22,336 nt of DNA from a virus: positions 1-22,336 of the IMG/VR virus record IMGVR_UViG_3300033146_006257. One strand, given 5' to 3'. The first letter of the stretch is position 1. Every line of letters begins with the position of its first letter. A program made the position numbers and the translations under genes. The notes under the pieces were generated by a model. It worked only from the letters and a program-made list of their open reading frames with translations. It did not search any database and was not told where the DNA came from. Below, one piece after another: positions 10,321 to 22,336 of this stretch.

Positions 10321-10334
10321 TATAAATATTTATA
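10321..10334. promoter_or_regulatory. 14-bp palindrome holding two opposed late promoter cores
   Basis: TATAAATATTTATA reads the same on both strands. The - strand copy of TATAAATA (10334-10327) is 18 bases before the GTG of the 328-residue gene and is presumably its promoter. The + strand copy (10321-10328) points back into the 3' end of the spike gene, where no + strand gene starts. The same 14-mer occurs at the tube/gp26 divergence (20756-20769). Confidence 0.65.
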
Positions 10335-13889: not shown

Positions 13890-16800
13890 TCAAAAAAGAG
13901 TGCCTATCATAGCGGCATCTTGGTTTTTAACATTTGTATTTCCAAGACTTAGAACAGGATCATCACTTGGAGTAGCTTGCGTAATATTATTTATTACAGT
14001 TGCAGGCTGTTGTTGAGATGCTTGGTGTCTACTTGATGTTTTTGCTGCCAGTTTCCTAGTGGCCTGCCCAACATCAGGATTACTCTCCCTTATAGGTTTT
14101 ATTTCTATTTCATCTTTAGATAAAGAGTCTTTTATTTGGTTTCCTGTTTTGTCGGTTTTCCTTATTTGAGGAAGTCCTGTCTCATTCGCTGCTTTTGGTA
14201 TTTCAACTGCAATACCAGGTTCTATCTCAGTTTTTTTATCTTCTTTCGATGCAAAAAGATTTGCTCCAAAACCTTTGGTTTTTTGTAATATAGAATTTCC
14301 AAAACTTTTAGCCTTCCCTAATCCTTCTAATCCTATTGACATGGCTTTTTGCACTGTATCACTACCTGCTATTTCTTTTGCTTTATCAGTTATACCATAT
14401 TTGTCCATTTTTCCTTTTATGGCAGAACCAGTATTTGCTATAGCATTTTTAACAGCCTTTCCTGTGTCTGGTGTAGTTAAAAATGTTAATCCTAGGGAAT
14501 TTGTTAATCCTCCTCCTAAACTACCCACAAGTCCCATAGCAGAAGATCCCAGAACTCCTCCCATATTAGATATTCTATCATCCCAAGATTTTCTGGTTTG
14601 TATCTCACTTTCCCCTTTTAGGTCATTTCCAAATCCTGTTCCATCTATTAAGCCAGTCAAAGCACTATTCCCAATTTCTGCTACAGAGCCTTCTCCTGTT
14701 AACATATTGAATGTCTTTTGAAGCATTAATGCAGCATCTTCACCCACTTTTCTTGATGTTATATATGTCTCTTCGGCAGCTGATATATTCCCATCAGAGT
14801 TTTTATCTGTTGCTAAGTCTCTAGCGAATTCATCATCTTCTTCTGTTGTTGTTCCATTTTCAATTCTTTCCATTAATCCAGGAAAATATTTTATCTTCTG
14901 TTCTAATATTTCTTTTCTATTTATGTCCTCTTGCGAAGCATTATCAATCTCTATTTTTTCATAAGCTTCTTTATATTCTTTTAATTTTTCTGGAACAATC
15001 TTAAATCTATTATCATACCTTTCTTTTCTCTTTAGTCCTACTTCTGTACTAGTATCGAATTTAGGAAAATCATTTAGGCTAACCTGTTGCGCAACAGGAT
15101 TGGCTATATCATCATTATCTAGGCTTTGTTCTATTGCAGTTGTTACATTTTTATTTTGGGTATCTCCTGAATCTCTTGTCTTTGATTGAGAATAAGATAT
15201 TTCTCCCTCATTGACAGGTTCCACAGATTTTCCTGAATCTCTAAATTTTCCTAATTGTATATCTTCTTCATTGAATGTGCCATTGGCATTAGCTTTTGCT
15301 AATCTATTCGCCATTCTTCGTTGCTCTTCGAATGATAGATTTTCGGGAACAATGTGCCAAGACTCATGCGCAAGAGGTCTTTTCAGCCCATATTTTTTGA
15401 ACAATCCCATTGATATTGCTTTATCTATTTTAGGTGATTTTTTTCCTCTACCGTGATATTCGATATCAACAGCCAATCCAGTATTATGAGCACTTCTGCC
15501 TGGAGGCGCAACCCAATGCCTTGCTTCTTTATATACTCTAGCATATGACCAATCAGGATGTTGCTTTTTTAAGGTCTTCATCTTATTATTAAATAATTTT
15601 GCTTGATGAGGAACACTCCTATAAGCTGAGCTTAAAGATAACTTCTCTCCTGTTGCTTTTGCATATTCATAACCCATTGCCTTAACATTATGTTTTTGAG
15701 CTTTGTTCATTTTGGCAAAACCACCATGTGCGGCTGAGCCACTTAAAGTAAATACATCAGAATCTTTTATTTTATCTATATCTAAAGCTTTCGGCTTTTT
15801 ATCAGGAGCACCAGCAGGCAATGAGACTTTTGCTGGTTTTATCTCAGGCTCTGAGGGGTTATCATATATAGGGGCTTCTTGCTTGGTTACCGAAGAAGTA
15901 ACCATTGATGAAACATCATAAGATTTTTTATATGATATTTCTCCTTCTTGAACCCCCACTGGAGCCTTTTTGCCTTCTTTCCATTTTCCTATTTTTATAT
16001 CTTTTGCTGCCTTAAAATATGCTTGTTGTGCTTCTGTTATTTCCTGTTCTTTTTTAAAAATCTCGGATGGATCAGCTTTCATTTTTAATAATGCTTGTTT
16101 TGCTTTTATAAGTTCTTTTTGCTTTAATTTAATAGCCTTAAGGTATGCGTCTTGCTCTTTTGTTAGATTTTGTATCTGAACTCTATCTCCTTCAAGAGAC
16201 ACATCTATTGAATTTCCAGTTAATTCAGTACGAGACTTATGTTTTATTATTTTAGGAGAAACAATACTACCTTCTTTTTTATTTGCCTTAGATAATGTAC
16301 TCGTCCTTCTCGTATCGCCTTGAATTTCAGGTAATACTATTTTATTATGTTTACCATTAAAATATGTATTATTCTCTATACTATCAAGCAAAGCCTGCAT
16401 TTTCTTATCTAGTTCCTCTGCTCTATCAAAATCAAAAGGGTCTATCCTTTGTTGTTCCTTATATAAAACCCGAATATCTCTCGACTGCGCTTTAGTTAAA
16501 TGAGAATATTTTTTGCCATTTATAGTATATTCATCAGATGTTTCCTGAGCATCCTCCTCTCTTTGTTTCATCAAGTCTTCTAATGCTTTTTTATATACCT
16601 CACCTTTTCCGCCTGACAGCCTTTGAATAGCATTATCTTTTTCACCTTTTTTGGTTACCGCGTCTAATTCCTGAAGCATTTCTTGATTAAGTACATATTC
16701 ATTCCTATGAACTATCCCAGCAATATCATCTTCTTTTCCTGTGCCTGTCCAACCACCATTAGCAAATTGAGTTAAGCCTAAATCTGCTGCAGCAGATTTT

Positions 16801-19052
16801 ACTGGAATGGCATCCTTAAGTTTTTTATCTGATGGTTTTCTAAGCTCCTCTAAAATTTGCATCCTTAGAGCTTCTTGCTCTTTAAGTAATATTTTGAATT
16901 TTTCATCATCATTAAAAGCAGAAATTAATTTAGATTGAACCTTGCTCATTTTAGCATTCTGCTCAGATGTAATTTGGACTTTTCCTCCTTTGCCATCATC
17001 CATATAAAATTCTTTCATTCTTACAGGAGGTTTAATGCCTTGAGTCTCCGTACTATTTGCAGGAACACCGTAATCCTTTTTCATTCCTGTTACTGTCCCT
17101 AAAGTTTCTTTTTTAGTTTTTTTGGCTTTTTCCCTTGCAGTCTCAGCATCAGAGTCTTCTTTCATTTTTCTATCAATAATTGCCTGAAGTTTTTTGTTAT
17201 CTTTATCACTAAAATTATCAGAATCTATAAATTGTTGCAGAACCTCAGGTCTATATTTTTGTACAGCTGACCAATCCTTAATTTCATCTTTACTCCAACT
17301 CCATGTGTTTTGTTCAATGGCTCCAGACTCACCTAATTCTTCTTGTGCTGTTTCAGCATCTGCCTTAGCCTTTTTTAATTTTTCGTACTCAGGATCTTTT
17401 CCAAAGATACTATCCACAATGGCATCAGGTATTAAATCATTATTTCTTAAAATATCTGCATACCCTTGTATAAGTTTTCCTATTTTTTCGCTTATCCACT
17501 CACCTATACCTGATACTGCTCCTTTTATAGTCGCCCAAATATCACCAGCTATTTCCTCTATTTTCTTAAGACTGAACATTGATTTTACTTCTGTCATAAA
17601 ATCAGGGAAAAATGTTTCTAATAAGTCCCAAACAGTCACAATAATGCCAAGGAATGGTATAATTTTTGCCAGTGGCTTTAAAACTTTTAAGACTCCTCCT
17701 ATTCCTTTTCCTATTTTCATACTGACACCAATTCCTTTTTCAACAAGTTTCGAGCCTATGTCTTTAACTTTTCCTGATACTTCTCCTATTTTTTCTCCCA
17801 TTCCTGAGAGTTTTTTACCAATTGTGGCTTTGAATGCCCCAAATTTCTCTGAAACAGTACTTGTTATGCCCTGCACTTTTTCTGACACTGTACCATTTAT
17901 CGCTTCAAATTTTTCACCTATTGTAGAGGTTATTCCTTTAATTTTTGAGGCTGCAGTAGTTAAACCATTCATTGCAAGGTCCTTGACTTTTCCTATTCCT
18001 GAAACAGCAAGGTCCTTAGCTTTTGACATTCCTTGTTTAGCTAAATCTGTAGCTTTGGCTAATCCTGTTTTTGCCATCGATGCTAATTCTGTTGCGCCAT
18101 CCAATGCAAGTTTTGTTGTTCCTTTAATAAGACTATATAGACCCTTTGCTGTAAATTTTCCTAATTTTAATGCTATATTGCTTAATGTCCCAAATGTTTT
18201 GGATAATCCTTTTACTAATAATTTTAGAGTGCCTATAGGATCCATTATCATTTTAGCTATACCTAGTCCAGTAATAATTTCTTTTAGATGTTCTTTAATA
18301 AACGGAAACACCTTTTCACCGATAAAAGGCCATAACCTTTTCTCAATTAGAGGCCAGAATGTTTTTAATAAATATGCCCCACCTAAAACTTTAGCAACCA
18401 TACCGAGAATGCCTGAGTCTCCTTTTACTTTTTGAGATATATTTTGTACTCCAGTTTTAATTATAGATGAGCCTTTTGATGCAGTTTTTTTGACTACATT
18501 TTTCAGTGTGTCTTTATATCTATGCTCTGCCCTATATTCTGCTTCTTTTTGCTCTTCCAAAGATTCTTTTTGAACTCTCAAAGCATCTTTATTAACATCA
18601 AGAATACCTTTATTTACCTGAACATTTCTGTCCATTATTTTTTTATTTGTATCATTTATGGTATCTATCTTTTTATTAATGGTATCTGAGAATCTTTGAA
18701 GTTCTTTGCCCAAAAAAGTTTTTAATGTATTTATTGTCTTAGGGAGGTTTTCATTATTTTTTTCTTTTTTAGGCTCTATAATAGAATTTTTAATACCCTT
18801 TTTTGTTTTTTCTATTTCTTCTAAGGCAGGAGTTTTGTCTGGTACTACTATAGCATTTTTGGCATTATTAGAAGCCATTACTCTGACTGTAGCAGTTAAA
18901 TCTGGTCCATTGTCTTGAACATCATTGTCTTGAACAGGGATTGCTTTTTTCTTTTCTTCGATATGAGTTCTAATATCTTCTGCTGTAATGTCTTTAGGTT
19001 TTTTTGCTTTATGTGTTTTTTTGAGAGCATTTTTAAGTAGTTTTCCTAACAT
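13890..19052 (-). CDS. Tape measure protein with internal M15 (VanY-like) peptidase domain
   Basis: A 1720-residue protein. In order: a charged N-terminus and helical coiled-coil region (about 110-200); hydrophobic segments at about 215-300; an 11-residue repeat region (313-433); a strong hydrophobic helix around 458-482 (IIPFLGIIVTVWDLLETFF); charged helices; the tape-measure motif FANGGWTGTGKEDDIAGIVHRNEYV (763-787); helical linkers; an M15 peptidase domain (about 1102-1260) with SAYRS, SAHNTGLAVDIE (zinc ligands H1189, D1196) and ESWH (E1230, H1233); then a long C-terminal part with Gly/Ala helices. The helical parts would set tube length. The peptidase would cut peptidoglycan peptides when the tape is ejected. 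It is far longer than T4 gp29 (590 residues), implying a long tail even after subtracting globular domains. The ATG follows GAGGAG by five bases. Confidence 0.88.
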   Translation of the reverse strand: MLGKLLKNALKKTHKAKKPKDITAEDIRTHIEEKKKAIPVQDNDVQDNGPDLTATVRVMASNNAKNAIVVPDKTPALEEIEKTKKGIKNSIIEPKKEKNNENLPKTINTLKTFLGKELQRFSDTINKKIDTINDTNKKIMDRNVQVNKGILDVNKDALRVQKESLEEQKEAEYRAEHRYKDTLKNVVKKTASKGSSIIKTGVQNISQKVKGDSGILGMVAKVLGGAYLLKTFWPLIEKRLWPFIGEKVFPFIKEHLKEIITGLGIAKMIMDPIGTLKLLVKGLSKTFGTLSNIALKLGKFTAKGLYSLIKGTTKLALDGATELASMAKTGLAKATDLAKQGMSKAKDLAVSGIGKVKDLAMNGLTTAASKIKGITSTIGEKFEAINGTVSEKVQGITSTVSEKFGAFKATIGKKLSGMGEKIGEVSGKVKDIGSKLVEKGIGVSMKIGKGIGGVLKVLKPLAKIIPFLGIIVTVWDLLETFFPDFMTEVKSMFSLKKIEEIAGDIWATIKGAVSGIGEWISEKIGKLIQGYADILRNNDLIPDAIVDSIFGKDPEYEKLKKAKADAETAQEELGESGAIEQNTWSWSKDEIKDWSAVQKYRPEVLQQFIDSDNFSDKDNKKLQAIIDRKMKEDSDAETAREKAKKTKKETLGTVTGMKKDYGVPANSTETQGIKPPVRMKEFYMDDGKGGKVQITSEQNAKMSKVQSKLISAFNDDEKFKILLKEQEALRMQILEELRKPSDKKLKDAIPVKSAAADLGLTQFANGGWTGTGKEDDIAGIVHRNEYVLNQEMLQELDAVTKKGEKDNAIQRLSGGKGEVYKKALEDLMKQREEDAQETSDEYTINGKKYSHLTKAQSRDIRVLYKEQQRIDPFDFDRAEELDKKMQALLDSIENNTYFNGKHNKIVLPEIQGDTRRTSTLSKANKKEGSIVSPKIIKHKSRTELTGNSIDVSLEGDRVQIQNLTKEQDAYLKAIKLKQKELIKAKQALLKMKADPSEIFKKEQEITEAQQAYFKAAKDIKIGKWKEGKKAPVGVQEGEISYKKSYDVSSMVTSSVTKQEAPIYDNPSEPEIKPAKVSLPAGAPDKKPKALDIDKIKDSDVFTLSGSAAHGGFAKMNKAQKHNVKAMGYEYAKATGEKLSLSSAYRSVPHQAKLFNNKMKTLKKQHPDWSYARVYKEARHWVAPPGRSAHNTGLAVDIEYHGRGKKSPKIDKAISMGLFKKYGLKRPLAHESWHIVPENLSFEEQRRMANRLAKANANGTFNEEDIQLGKFRDSGKSVEPVNEGEISYSQSKTRDSGDTQNKNVTTAIEQSLDNDDIANPVAQQVSLNDFPKFDTSTEVGLKRKERYDNRFKIVPEKLKEYKEAYEKIEIDNASQEDINRKEILEQKIKYFPGLMERIENGTTTEEDDEFARDLATDKNSDGNISAAEETYITSRKVGEDAALMLQKTFNMLTGEGSVAEIGNSALTGLIDGTGFGNDLKGESEIQTRKSWDDRISNMGGVLGSSAMGLVGSLGGGLTNSLGLTFLTTPDTGKAVKNAIANTGSAIKGKMDKYGITDKAKEIAGSDTVQKAMSIGLEGLGKAKSFGNSILQKTKGFGANLFASKEDKKTEIEPGIAVEIPKAANETGLPQIRKTDKTGNQIKDSLSKDEIEIKPIRESNPDVGQATRKLAAKTSSRHQASQQQPATVINNITQATPSDDPVLSLGNTNVKNQDAAMIGTLF

Positions 19053-19116: not shown

Positions 19117-19809
19117 CTAAGCCCAAAGGAGATTTGGTATATATGTATAATCTATTGTTTCCTCTTCACCACAACTAGGACAAATCCATTTATATTCAAT
19201 GTCTAACTCATCAACCATTTTTTGATAAGCATCAAAAATATCATCAAAAACCTTTGTGGGTAATGAATCTATAAAATCTTGAATTTCTCTCTTTGTTAAT
19301 TTATCATATACTTCACCGTCTTTTTCAATTGAATGAATGTGTAATAGAAAATCTTGGTAAATATATTCTACTAAACCATTTTTTAAAGATAGTTTTTCTT
19401 TATCTTTGTTCGATTTTAATTCACCAAAAGTTACCTTAATATTATGAGAATCAATGCTACCATAATTTGAAGGCTTGTAATTCATAATGTCTTTTAATTT
19501 TACTTTTATTTCATCCTCGGTATTACATTTTTTGCATGTATGTGTATCCTCAAGGAATTCAGAGATTGATTCTATTCTAATATCAATTAGCAACTTTTTT
19601 TGTTCAACACCAGACAATACAGTATTTTTATCTTCAATACAAGGTTTAATCAAAATATCATATAACATTTTGTCTGTTATATTATCTTCTTGTTTTTCAA
19701 GAAGTTTTAAGTATTGTCTCTCCTCTTTTGCTGTCCATTGTCTAAACTTAATTTCTTTTTCGCCTATTTTTGATACATATTCGTATCCACTCTCATATAT
19801 TAATGCCAT
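19117..19809 (-). CDS. gp26-like zinc-finger protein, second copy (baseplate hub or tail chaperone)
   Basis: A 230-residue protein, clearly paralogous to the gene just upstream: both begin MAL.Y...Y, contain KFR.WT.KE..YL, a CKKC pair, a long helical middle (LLHIHS) and end with a second C-x2-C pair and IPN.LW. Here the Cys pairs are CKKC (about 98-101) and CPSC, likely one zinc site. By motif it resembles the T4 gp26/'T4 baseplate' family. Its place directly before the tape measure is that of tail-assembly chaperones in many phages. Unlike its paralogue it has no slippery heptamer at the 3' end (AAT CTC CTT), and the -1 frame closes after about eight codons. The ATG follows AAAGGAT. Confidence 0.7.
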   Translation of the reverse strand: MALIYESGYEYVSKIGEKEIKFRQWTAKEERQYLKLLEKQEDNITDKMLYDILIKPCIEDKNTVLSGVEQKKLLIDIRIESISEFLEDTHTCKKCNTEDEIKVKLKDIMNYKPSNYGSIDSHNIKVTFGELKSNKDKEKLSLKNGLVEYIYQDFLLHIHSIEKDGEVYDKLTKREIQDFIDSLPTKVFDDIFDAYQKMVDELDIEYKWICPSCGEEETIDYTYIPNLLWA

Positions 19810-19887: not shown

Positions 19888-20052
19888 CTATTTATTTTGT
19901 TCATCAAGAGTTTTGCTTAATAACCCAAAAAATATGTCCCTCTCAAAAGGCAACATATTATCAAGGTCTGTCATACTATAATGACCATAAAAATGCATAT
20001 TGTTATACCATTGATATAAACTCAGTAGGTCTGACTCACAAATCAAGTCCAC
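19888..20052 (-). CDS. -1 frame extension of the first gp26-like gene (54 codons)
   Basis: An open frame in the -1 register of the upstream gene, reading on from codon GTG at 20052 to TAG at 19890-19888. It encodes 54 residues, including NNMHFYGHYSMTDLDNMLPF and ERDIFFGLLSKTLDEQNK. The amino-acid content is balanced and protein-like, ending in an amphipathic helix. There is no ribosome-binding site before any possible start (TTG 20046, ATG 19998), so I infer it is made as a frameshift fusion of 281 residues. Chaperone extensions of this size are typical of the second domain in lambda G-T or P2 E-E' systems. Confidence 0.6.
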   Translation of the reverse strand: MDLICESDLLSLYQWYNNMHFYGHYSMTDLDNMLPFERDIFFGLLSKTLDEQNK

Positions 20053-20732
20053 AAAAAATTTGGTATATGGTCAAATTCTACATTATTTTCTTCATTACAT
20101 ATCATACAGTGTGTTGTTAATCCGAACTCAAGAGAACTTTTCATTGATTGGAACTCTTTATATACTTCATCAAAAATATATGTAGGCAAATCTTCTATAA
20201 ATTCTTTAAGCTCATCAAATGTGAATGTATCTTCAATACCTCCATTTATTTCAACCGAATGAATATGCAATAAAAAATTAATAAAAGCGTGTTCAACACT
20301 TGAATTAGTGGTGTTCAATCTTTCTTTAACTTTTTTTGATACTATAGGACCAAAGTTAAATGTAATATTATCAACCGTTACAGGTTTGAACTCATCAGGT
20401 TTGAATTTTATTATTTTATCAAACTCTACATCTAAATCGTTGACCTGTTTACACTTTTTGCATATGTACCTCATAGGGAATGTATCTCCGAGAGATTTCT
20501 TTCTTATCTCAATCATAAGCATTTTCTGTTCATTAACAGAAAATGCTACATCAGGGTCCTCAAGACAAGGTCTAATAAGAATATCAAATAATTTATCATC
20601 AGTGATTTCTTCCTCAGACTCTACCACTATCAGATAATCTTTTTCGTTTTTTGTGGTCCAGGGTCTAAATTTAAAAATCCTATCACCTATTTTTACTGTA
20701 TTGTTATACTCAACATTATACTTTAATGCCAT
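20043..20732 (-). CDS. gp26-like zinc-finger protein, first copy; likely frameshifted tail-assembly chaperone
   Basis: A 229-residue protein with KFRPWTTKNEKDYL near the start, a CKKC pair (about 99-102), a helical middle (INFLLHIHSVE) and a second pair CMIC, followed by FDHIPNFLWT and a TGA stop. The four cysteines probably bind zinc. Motifs and size suggest the T4 gp26/'T4 baseplate' family (T4 gp26 is 208 residues), an assignment from memory. Just before the stop the codons AAT TTT TTG contain the heptamer T TTT TTG in the correct phase for -1 slippage, and the -1 frame is open for 54 more codons. It is the first leftward gene, next to the tube genes. The ATG follows AAAGGAT, and a late promoter lies 29 bases upstream. 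Confidence 0.75.
   Translation of the reverse strand: MALKYNVEYNNTVKIGDRIFKFRPWTTKNEKDYLIVVESEEEITDDKLFDILIRPCLEDPDVAFSVNEQKMLMIEIRKKSLGDTFPMRYICKKCKQVNDLDVEFDKIIKFKPDEFKPVTVDNITFNFGPIVSKKVKERLNTTNSSVEHAFINFLLHIHSVEINGGIEDTFTFDELKEFIEDLPTYIFDEVYKEFQSMKSSLEFGLTTHCMICNEENNVEFDHIPNFLWT
20052..20058 (-). promoter_or_regulatory. Slippery heptamer T TTT TTG for -1 ribosomal frameshifting
   Basis: On the - strand the zero-frame codons AAT TTT TTG TGG ACT TGA place T TTT TTG exactly in the X XXY YYZ phase, two sense codons before the stop. After a one-base backward slip, reading continues GTG GAC TTG ATT into the 54-codon extension. As I recall, P2 uses the same heptamer in its E/E' tail genes. I see only weak potential stems downstream (4 bp), so any stimulator is not obvious. 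Confidence 0.6.
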
Positions 20733-20755: not shown

Positions 20756-20769
20756 TATAAATATTTATA
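20756..20769. promoter_or_regulatory. Divergent overlapping late promoters in a 14-bp palindrome
   Basis: TATAAATATTTATA is a perfect palindrome. The + strand copy (20756-20763) is 23 bases before the first tube gene; the - strand copy (20769-20762) is 29 bases before the first gp26-like gene. The two cores share the central TA, so two initiation complexes could not occupy the site together. It is the only divergent intergenic region in the window, 54 bases long. Confidence 0.7.
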
Positions 20770-20786
20770 AAATAGGAGGACGTATA

Positions 20787-21290
20787 ATGTCAGGTCCAAT
20801 GAACATAGCCGCAAAGCAACCAAAATGGCAAGACCCTAGTAAATTTAGCATAAGTATAGTAGGAGCAGGCGCTGGTGTATTGAGATTGCCTGCTCCAGAT
20901 GTGTTAAGTATGGCTTGTCAAGGCATTAGTTTGGCCGAACTTAATGCCACCCCAATTGAGGATTGGGTAGGAGAAGAATGGAGATTTGCCACAGGTAGGC
21001 TAGAGAATTATCAAATAACAATAACATTTAAGGATTATGATAATTTTGAGTTATACAGAAAATTTGCTAATGCTTTTCAGAAATTCACCAGAATGTATCC
21101 AGATGACCAAAAAATTGACCTTTTAATTGATACATCTGATGATTTTGGCGTTAATGCTTTTAAAACCATAGTGGAATTCAAAGATTGTATGATTATTGCT
21201 GTATCAGGAGCAACCCTAGATAATAGCGCTGTTGCTTCTGTGGCTGAATTCACCGTAACTCTAAAATGTAGTTATGTCACTACACATTAA
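20787..21290 (+). CDS. Tail tube protein-like, gp19 family, first copy (divergent)
   Basis: A 167-residue protein of tube size (T4 gp19 is 163). It has the family's general design: an N-terminal beta region ending in a short SMACQGISLAEL segment, a WRFATGRLENYQITITFKD strand pair equivalent to the IWNQGRLTV/GTWTVTFMD region of the next gene, a helix (LYRKFANAFQKF) and a final strand block (ASVAEFTVTLKCSYV). It lacks the N-terminal KLxQLKNTL motif shared by the next two copies and is the most diverged of the three, so it could have a special role in the tube. The ATG follows AGGAGGA by six bases. The stop lies 16 bases before the next gene and just before its ribosome-binding site, so the two are coupled. 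Confidence 0.7.
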   Translation: MSGPMNIAAKQPKWQDPSKFSISIVGAGAGVLRLPAPDVLSMACQGISLAELNATPIEDWVGEEWRFATGRLENYQITITFKDYDNFELYRKFANAFQKFTRMYPDDQKIDLLIDTSDDFGVNAFKTIVEFKDCMIIAVSGATLDNSAVASVAEFTVTLKCSYVTTH

Positions 21291-21306
21291 CAAGGAGTAT
21301 ATATTT

Positions 21307-21825
21307 ATGGGAAATAGTAAAATAAGTCAGTTAAAAAATACACTTGGTATGGGAGCCAGGGCAAATAAGTATAGAGTTATTATTAATGGTGTAGGTGGGG
21401 GTCCTGGTGGCTCAATAGTAGATACATTAGCAAAATCAACAGCAATACCAGGCAGAAGTTTTCATGAGGTAGAGATATGGAACCAGGGAAGACTTACAGT
21501 GATAGCGGGTGATGCCGATTTTAGTGGAACTTGGACAGTAACTTTTATGGACACTGAAGATCATTCTTTAAGGGGACAATTTATTGATTGGATGGAATTT
21601 ATAGACTCAGTTGCTAATAACTCAAGAGGTGCTGGAGATCATAGCTCTTATATGACAACGGCGATGGTTCAGCAATTAAGTACGATTGACAATCATGTGA
21701 TGGCCATATATACTTTTGAAGATATATGGCCAAAAAGTATATCTGATAGTTCATTATCAGATGACGGGACAGATATGATAGAGTTTAGTGTTGAATTTAA
21801 TTTCACATCCTGGGCAAAATCATAG
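21307..21825 (+). CDS. Tail tube protein gp19-like, second copy
   Basis: A 172-residue protein. It begins GNSKISQLKNTLGMGARANKY and continues TAIPGRSFHEVEIWNQGRLT, GTWTVTFMDTEDHSLRGQF, a helix, and a C-terminal TFEDIWPKSI...IEFSVEFNFTSW, the typical gp19 tube pattern. The start at 21307 has AAGGAG (21292-21297) nine bases upstream. The earlier in-frame ATG at 21274 lies inside the preceding gene without a ribosome-binding site and is rejected. Tube monomers stack as hexamer rings around the tape measure. It should be read from the divergent promoter together with the first copy. Confidence 0.85.
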   Translation: MGNSKISQLKNTLGMGARANKYRVIINGVGGGPGGSIVDTLAKSTAIPGRSFHEVEIWNQGRLTVIAGDADFSGTWTVTFMDTEDHSLRGQFIDWMEFIDSVANNSRGAGDHSSYMTTAMVQQLSTIDNHVMAIYTFEDIWPKSISDSSLSDDGTDMIEFSVEFNFTSWAKS

Positions 21826-21827
21826 TA

Positions 21828-21835
21828 TATAAATA
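21828..21835 (+). promoter_or_regulatory. Late promoter TATAAATA before the third tube gene
   Basis: Exact TATAAATA on the + strand two bases after the stop of the second tube gene and 58 bases before the next ATG, a longer leader than elsewhere. It would let the third copy be expressed separately from the first two. Confidence 0.6.
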
Positions 21836-21893
21836 ATAATGAGTTAAGTGATACTTTAAAAAAATCATAATATTAAAAATGGAGGAAGATGAT

Positions 21894-22336
21894 ATGGCTT
21901 CAAGCAAATTACAACAACTAAAAAACACTCTATCGATGGGCGCAAGAGGAAATAAATATAGAATTATGCTAGCAGCACCAGTAGGACCAACAGATGATTT
22001 CTTAATTGATACGGTAGGTAAAGGTGGGGCAATTCCAGCTAAAACAATAGGACAAATAGAGATTTGGACTCAAGGTAGAAAGCTTGTTGTTGCGGGTGAT
22101 GCTACATATGAGAATGCATGGAATCTTACATTTTGGAATACACAAGATTTGGCACTCAGGAACGCGTTTGACCAATGGTTACTTTTTATTGATGATATGG
22201 AGGCTCACTCAAGAGCGGCTACTGACCACGTTTCCTATATGACTGAAACTGCTCAAATTCACCAACTAAATACATCAGACAATAGTATGATGGCTCAATA
22301 TGAGTTCAGAAACCTATGGCCTACAGGAATTTCTGC
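21894..22336 (+). CDS. Tail tube protein gp19-like, third copy (3' end outside window)
   Basis: At least 147 residues are present; the gene runs off the window. It begins ASSKLQQLKNTLSMGARGNKY, then AIPAKTIGQIEIWTQGRKLV, AWNLTFWNTQDLALRNAF, HVSYMTETAQIHQLNTSDNS and FRNLWPTGI, aligning along its whole length with the second copy, with similar spacing of landmarks. The ATG at 21894 follows GGAGGA by seven bases. The two are clear paralogues by tandem duplication but differ at most positions, so the duplication is old and both are under constraint. Its own late promoter and strong ribosome-binding site suggest this may be the major tube subunit, which is inference. Confidence 0.85.
   Translation, partial: MASSKLQQLKNTLSMGARGNKYRIMLAAPVGPTDDFLIDTVGKGGAIPAKTIGQIEIWTQGRKLVVAGDATYENAWNLTFWNTQDLALRNAFDQWLLFIDDMEAHSRAATDHVSYMTETAQIHQLNTSDNSMMAQYEFRNLWPTGIS

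Follow-up and report, generated by a model that had tools for sequence, protein, structure and literature searches.

Does a gp26-like gene of this virus, which ends just behind a run of six Ts and is followed by an open frame, make one protein or two? The window, by which we mean the whole stretch of DNA analysed, comprises 22,336 nucleotides of the IMG/VR record IMGVR_UViG_3300033146_006257. The original prediction was that a programmed -1 frameshift near the end of this gene (gene A) makes a tail-assembly chaperone. In what follows we consider the gene itself, related loci, a tandem paralogue (gene B), and the chaperone systems already known.

Gene A and its two reading frames

The following features make up the junction.

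20043 to 20732, minus strand: gene A, a gp26-like TAC-N of 229 amino acids (PF12322, E=2e-26; PHROG 150, E=9e-22; AF2 model with pLDDT 88)
20052 to 20058, minus strand: slippery heptamer T TTT TTG (T TTT TTN in 154 non-redundant loci)
19888 to 20052, minus strand: -1 frame extension of 54 codons plus TAG, gp51 C-terminal domain (TAC-C; PHROG 634)
19888 to 20732, minus strand: predicted frameshift fusion, TAC-NC, of 281 residues (227 + 54), which aligns as one protein with relatives

The product of gene A belongs to the Pfam family T4_baseplate (PF12322) and to PHROG 150, annotated as "baseplate hub," and it contains two CxxC pairs. Its 3′ codons read ATA CCA AAT TTT TTG TGG ACT TGA, giving the C-terminal peptide IPNFLWT*. 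The heptamer had been placed two sense codons before the stop, which is exact to the base: T TTT TTG occupies 20058-20052, conforms to the pattern X XXY YYZ in the correct frame, and leaves two sense codons before the TGA at 20043-20045. In the -1 frame, 54 open codons (20052-19891; VDLICESDLLSLYQWYNNMHFYGHYSMTDLDNMLPFERDIFFGLLSKTLDEQNK) lead to a TAG at 19890-19888, a degree of openness observed in 0.1% of dinucleotide shuffles of the stretch downstream of gene A. What had been described as protein-like content is homology to the C-terminus of gp51, since the extension matches PHROG 634 ("baseplate hub assembly catalyst"; E=1.1e-11); gp51-annotated genes of Vibrio phages are 47-49% identical to it by tblastn. 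The extension has a further match to PHROG 150, at the C-terminal end of that profile (positions 235-280 of 282; E=0.003), which is consistent with PHROG 150 members having both parts fused. The extension was said to have no ribosome-binding site of its own, and indeed no SD-like motif stands ahead of it in the window sequence.

In the mechanism that we favour, most ribosomes would stop at the TGA, yielding the 229-residue gp26-like TAC-N. A minority would slip back one base with the Phe and Leu tRNAs on TTT TTG, such that T TTT TTG is re-read as TTT TTT; these would bypass the TGA and go on to translate the 54-residue gp51-type domain. Tandem slippage at the heptamer is calculated to give 227 + 54 = 281 residues, the predicted TAC-NC.

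Conservation of the heptamer and the extension

Six IMG/VR relatives that span the junction, 42-68% identical to gene A, form the window clade; L018 and L003 are one contig, as are L019 and L004, and L023, which ends before the junction, was left out. At the end of the gp26-like gene all six carry AAT or GGT, then TTT, TTG or TTA, and TGG, followed by one codon and the stop. Their open -1 extensions are 43-70% identical to that of the window, and none of the six lacks the heptamer or has a stop in the -1 frame.

A scan with a marine-type profile returned 80 loci (79 non-redundant), and TTTTTTC with an open -1 frame was present in all 79. Eight loci came from a profile scan of binned bacterial assemblies, these MAG contigs having heptamer and extension together in 8/8. 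When the extension only was used, blind to the heptamer, 73 non-redundant loci were retrieved, and T TTT TTN was located at the 3′ end of a long gp26 frame in 72 of them, a few being clipped where their contig ends. In L142, the exception, a stop precedes the extension match by 29 codons; this locus, around position 573, is the lone extension-bearing one without an upstream gp26 frame, and it looks like an internal deletion or a chimeric assembly. A scan of genome contigs with a single extension as the query returned no relatives.

The same arrangement is found in cultured phages with split gp26/gp51 (Kyanoviridae, Pelagibacter HTVC008M, Sinorhizobium phiM9 and phiM12, Rhizobium RHph_Y68, Caulobacter Cr30, and Vibrio F86): in 12/12 the gp51 frame is -1 to gp26 and open from the heptamer, and T TTT TTN stands 0-2 codons ahead of the gp26 stop. 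In T4, RB49, and Vibrio phiKT1024 the same extension is fused in frame within gp51. Contigs recur between these sets, so their counts are not additive, and the non-redundant pool amounts to 154 loci. The original prediction had asked whether heptamer and extension are conserved together in relatives; except for L142, they are in all of these sets. In Synechococcus phage DSL-LC03 the gp51-type extension (L015, 1501-1653) is wholly unannotated in the public record, and in many other public records the frameshift gene has been split or overlooked.

Synonymous-site constraint, proposed as a check near 20058, is found there. The third base of the codon before TTT TTN is T in 154/154 non-redundant loci, the adjacent columns being variable; because this set was gathered by requiring the heptamer, the unbiased figures are those of the sets of 12, 79, 73, and 8 and of the clade. 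The invariant T occurs across seven codons (AGT, TCT, GAT, AAT, GCT, GGT, and ACT), which encode Ser, Asp, Asn, Ala, Gly, or Thr. The Phe codon in the P-site is TTT in all 154, while elsewhere in the same genes TTT averages 72% of Phe codons. Since the loci are related, multiplying their single probabilities would not yield a true one.

These numbers also bear on the reading that an assembly or sequencing error in the homopolymer has split a normal, fused gp26-gp51 gene. Such a reading would agree with the error-prone nature of homopolymers and with the in-frame fusion of T4-type phages. The split, however, is present in well over a hundred independent contigs as well as in finished phage genomes, always into the -1 frame and with the 0-frame stop 0-2 codons (in a few, up to 8) downstream. 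With so many independent sequences, an error is refuted in practice, and we regard it as vanishingly improbable.

Paralogue B and the alternatives to the proposed ribosomal slippage

The best control for the constraint on the heptamer, being within the clade, is the neighbouring paralogue.

19117 to 19809, minus strand: gene B, a tandem gp26-like paralogue of 230 amino acids without heptamer or extension (PF12322, E=3e-30)

Gene B is 40% identical to gene A and adjoins it in five of the six relatives, L022 having a different next gene. The gene B copies keep the peptide N-(F/L)-L-W by means of CTC CTT, CTA CTT, CTT CTT, TTC CTC, or TTA TTA (in the window, AAT CTC CTT TGG); one of them has the identical Asn-Phe-Leu-Trp, but coded AAC TTC CTC TGG. 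Neither the heptamer nor an open -1 frame is present in any gene B copy (0/6), versus both in 7/7 gene A copies of the clade, and the -1 frame of gene B is closed within at most 13 codons. Co-conservation, synonymous invariance, this control, and the gp51 homology together support the programmed -1 frameshift that was proposed, and judging from the sequences the short and long chaperone forms almost certainly arise by a ribosomal slip at the T-rich heptamer.

Translational coupling would read the same junction differently, with ribosomes that end at the TGA restarting on the overlapping TTG, or on the ATG of relatives, to make a separate small gp51-type protein. Overlap-type coupling would likewise favour the -1 frame, and gp51 is annotated as a gene of its own in GenBank records. 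TAATG occurs at the junction in L018, L019, and L021, which would permit reinitiation there, and an ATG lies within 10 codons in 89 of the 154 loci. The stop in the window is overlapped by a TTG (cTTGa), and in formal terms a leaderless reinitiation start is not lacking. On the other hand, in four of the seven clade members (the window, L017, L020, and L022) the extension runs for 17 codons or more before any ATG, which disfavours reinitiation; the first ATG comes at about codon 18, by then inside the domain. In 49/154 loci, ATG, GTG, and TTG are all missing from the 10 codons after the slip codon. Coupling also leaves unexplained an invariant and synonymously constrained heptamer (154/154) and its absence from gene B. 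We consider coupling very unlikely to be the source of the long form; some members may make a little free extension by reinitiation, which does not explain the overall pattern.

The frame might instead be shifted by RNA polymerase slipping on the T6 run, and a homopolymer of 6-8 T is indeed present in every locus. Runs of this length are short for efficient polymerase slippage, and the run coincides exactly with an in-frame X XXX XXY unit that is mostly broken at the seventh base (TTTTTTC in 118/154 loci). Transcriptional slippage appears even less probable than coupling.

As for stimulators of the ribosomal slip, the downstream RNA in the window folds no better than shuffles (z=0.79), and no downstream fold is shared by the seven clade members, whose z-scores range from -2.9 to +0.8. 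The heptamer of dnaX has an SD-like motif upstream. No such motif precedes the heptamer in the window, and within the clade it is present in L021 only; outside the window clade it is common, and over all 154 loci it lies 8-10 bases upstream of the heptamer in 140. This frequency is no evidence of a stimulatory role, since synonymous resampling of the same protein expects 138.8 (sd 1.1) versus the 140 seen; the conserved Glu-Gly encoded there explains it fully.

The probable chaperone role and its relation to known systems

The surroundings of genes A and B are as follows.

13890 to 19052, minus strand: tape measure protein of 1720 amino acids, the expected client (PHROG 58, E=8e-8; VanY/M15 PF02557, E=9e-13)
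20756 to 20769, both strands: perfect palindrome TATAAATATTTATA, which sits between gene A and the divergent tube gene and reads as a T4-type late promoter motif in either direction
20787 to 21825, plus strand: two tandem tail-tube paralogues, divergent from gene A (PHROG 45, E=8e-9 and 3e-33)

The locus was originally placed between tube and tape measure genes. Gene A does lie between both, but the tube genes are divergent and on the opposite strand, and gene B intervenes before the tape measure gene. In T4, gp26 and gp51 are listed among the hub assembly chaperones, and gp51 is required, yet missing from the finished particle (PMC3004832). Homology to gp26/gp51, tape measure synteny, and the conservation of the frameshift lend support to the chaperone role that had been suggested for the gp26-like family. 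The AF2 model of the 0-frame gene A protein (pLDDT 88) gave a strong match to viral gp26-type proteins. In a fold search of the PDB with this model, 2OB9, the HK97 tail assembly chaperone, came out at rank 4; its probability (0.28) and TM-score (0.23 by query and 0.39 by target) were the highest of the list, but the match is weak and not significant (E=1.1). A sequence search of the PDB gave no matches.

Phage lambda G/GT, a system attributed to Xu, Hendrix and Duda (2004), reportedly consists of a short protein and a minority -1 frameshift fusion encoded beside the tape measure gene. Gene A would resemble it in having a short form and a predicted minority -1 fusion, encoded next to the tape measure; it differs in its CxxC-bearing protein of about 229 residues and in the heptamer, which is another one in lambda. 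Pfam and PHROGs scans returned T4-type families only. By analogy with lambda G/GT, TAC-N would coat the tape measure protein (13890-19052), and tube subunits would be recruited in tail assembly by the domain that TAC-NC has in addition.

On the strength of the sequence comparisons we conclude that gene A encodes a putative TAC-N and, by the predicted frameshift, TAC-NC, and its T4-type chaperone assignment appears well supported. That gene A makes both a 229-residue TAC-N and a 281-residue frameshift TAC-NC with chaperone action is in our view highly probable. What the sequences show is the architecture, its conservation, the synonymous constraint on the heptamer, and the homology to gp26 and gp51; from these we infer that the slip occurs in gene A, in a minority of ribosomes, and that its products act as chaperones in this phage.

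The abstract of Vladimirov et al. (2022) is said to report frameshifting conserved in several T4-like groups, with 26 and 51 as separate genes in T4. The novelty suggested in the original prediction, which knew of no such description for zinc-finger gp26-like proteins of T4-type phages, is not supported. T4-like TAC genes were identified by Vladimirov, Gautam and Davidson (Virology 2022), as relayed by PMC10885494 and PMC12846349; the latter credits them with the polyT slippery signals in TAC-N genes of T4-like phages, and the former mentions that some T4-like phages have a short gene and a fused long gene in place of frameshifting. Because it has already been reported for T4-like phages, a frameshifted chaperone is not new in kind. 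As these accounts present them, the T4-like TACs share with gene A the families, the order gp26, gp51-type domain, tape measure, and a polyT site in TAC-N. The window clade has T TTT TTG/A followed by a Trp codon, whereas the usual T4-like site is T TTT TTC/T, and unlike the T4-like TACs in these accounts it has a tandem paralogue without frameshift. The T TTT TTG/A heptamer and the non-frameshifting tandem paralogue are, among the sequences compared, what is clade-specific.

T4 gp26 and gp51 have homologous N domains, and gp51 has the same C-terminal domain as the window extension. T4, however, has a gene each for the short and the long form, and its gp26 ends without a heptamer; in the window the long form is not in one frame, the 0-frame stop intervening, and gene B has no extension. 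The TAC of Vandenendeviridae/Andersonviridae has a GTTTTT slippery site, as in phage Adele (PMC12846349). It is like gene A in its conserved -1 frameshift and in the T-rich site at the TAC-N end, but these are other phage families than the window clade, and the likeness is one of site type. Our larger, independent survey confirms that T4-type tail chaperones widely rely on frameshifting; what has long been annotated as a separate gene, gp51 or "hub assembly catalyst," would usually be the frameshift tail of gp26.

In the gp26 tree, where the Vibrio and Campylobacter rows are long-branched and unplaced, all gene B copies form one clade (99/100), with the A genes of the window clade and away from 26 and 51 of T4 and RB49. 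A common origin of gene B and T4 gp26 is rejected by this tree, and gene B is, on its topology, separate in origin from the T4 26/51 duplication. The window clade might represent a third arrangement, separate from that duplication, in which a frameshifting TAC gene is accompanied by a dedicated TAC-N paralogue, gene B, whose slippery site was lost or never arose; three chaperone species (short A, long A, and short B) would then serve one tape measure. We put this forward tentatively and lean slightly against it. If true, the A + B arrangement would be an intermediate solution between frameshifting and gene duplication. The A/B pair as such offers a natural control for asking what the phage needs the long form for.

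Several further observations concern the surrounding genes. Residues 1114-1199 of the tape measure protein are a VanY/M15 D-Ala-D-Ala carboxypeptidase domain. The plus strand carries at least three tube-like paralogues in tandem (20787-22336), the rest of the tail block being on the other strand; the third of them continues past the window end. The sequence TATAAATA occurs 17 times in the window versus 6.7 expected, often just upstream of genes, and a second back-to-back pair of late promoter motifs is located at 10321-10334. A homing-endonuclease-like gene (98-1513; PHROG 3339, E=3e-99) lies at the end of the baseplate block, and in the relative L017 an endonuclease-like ORF (106-1359) is found upstream of gp26.
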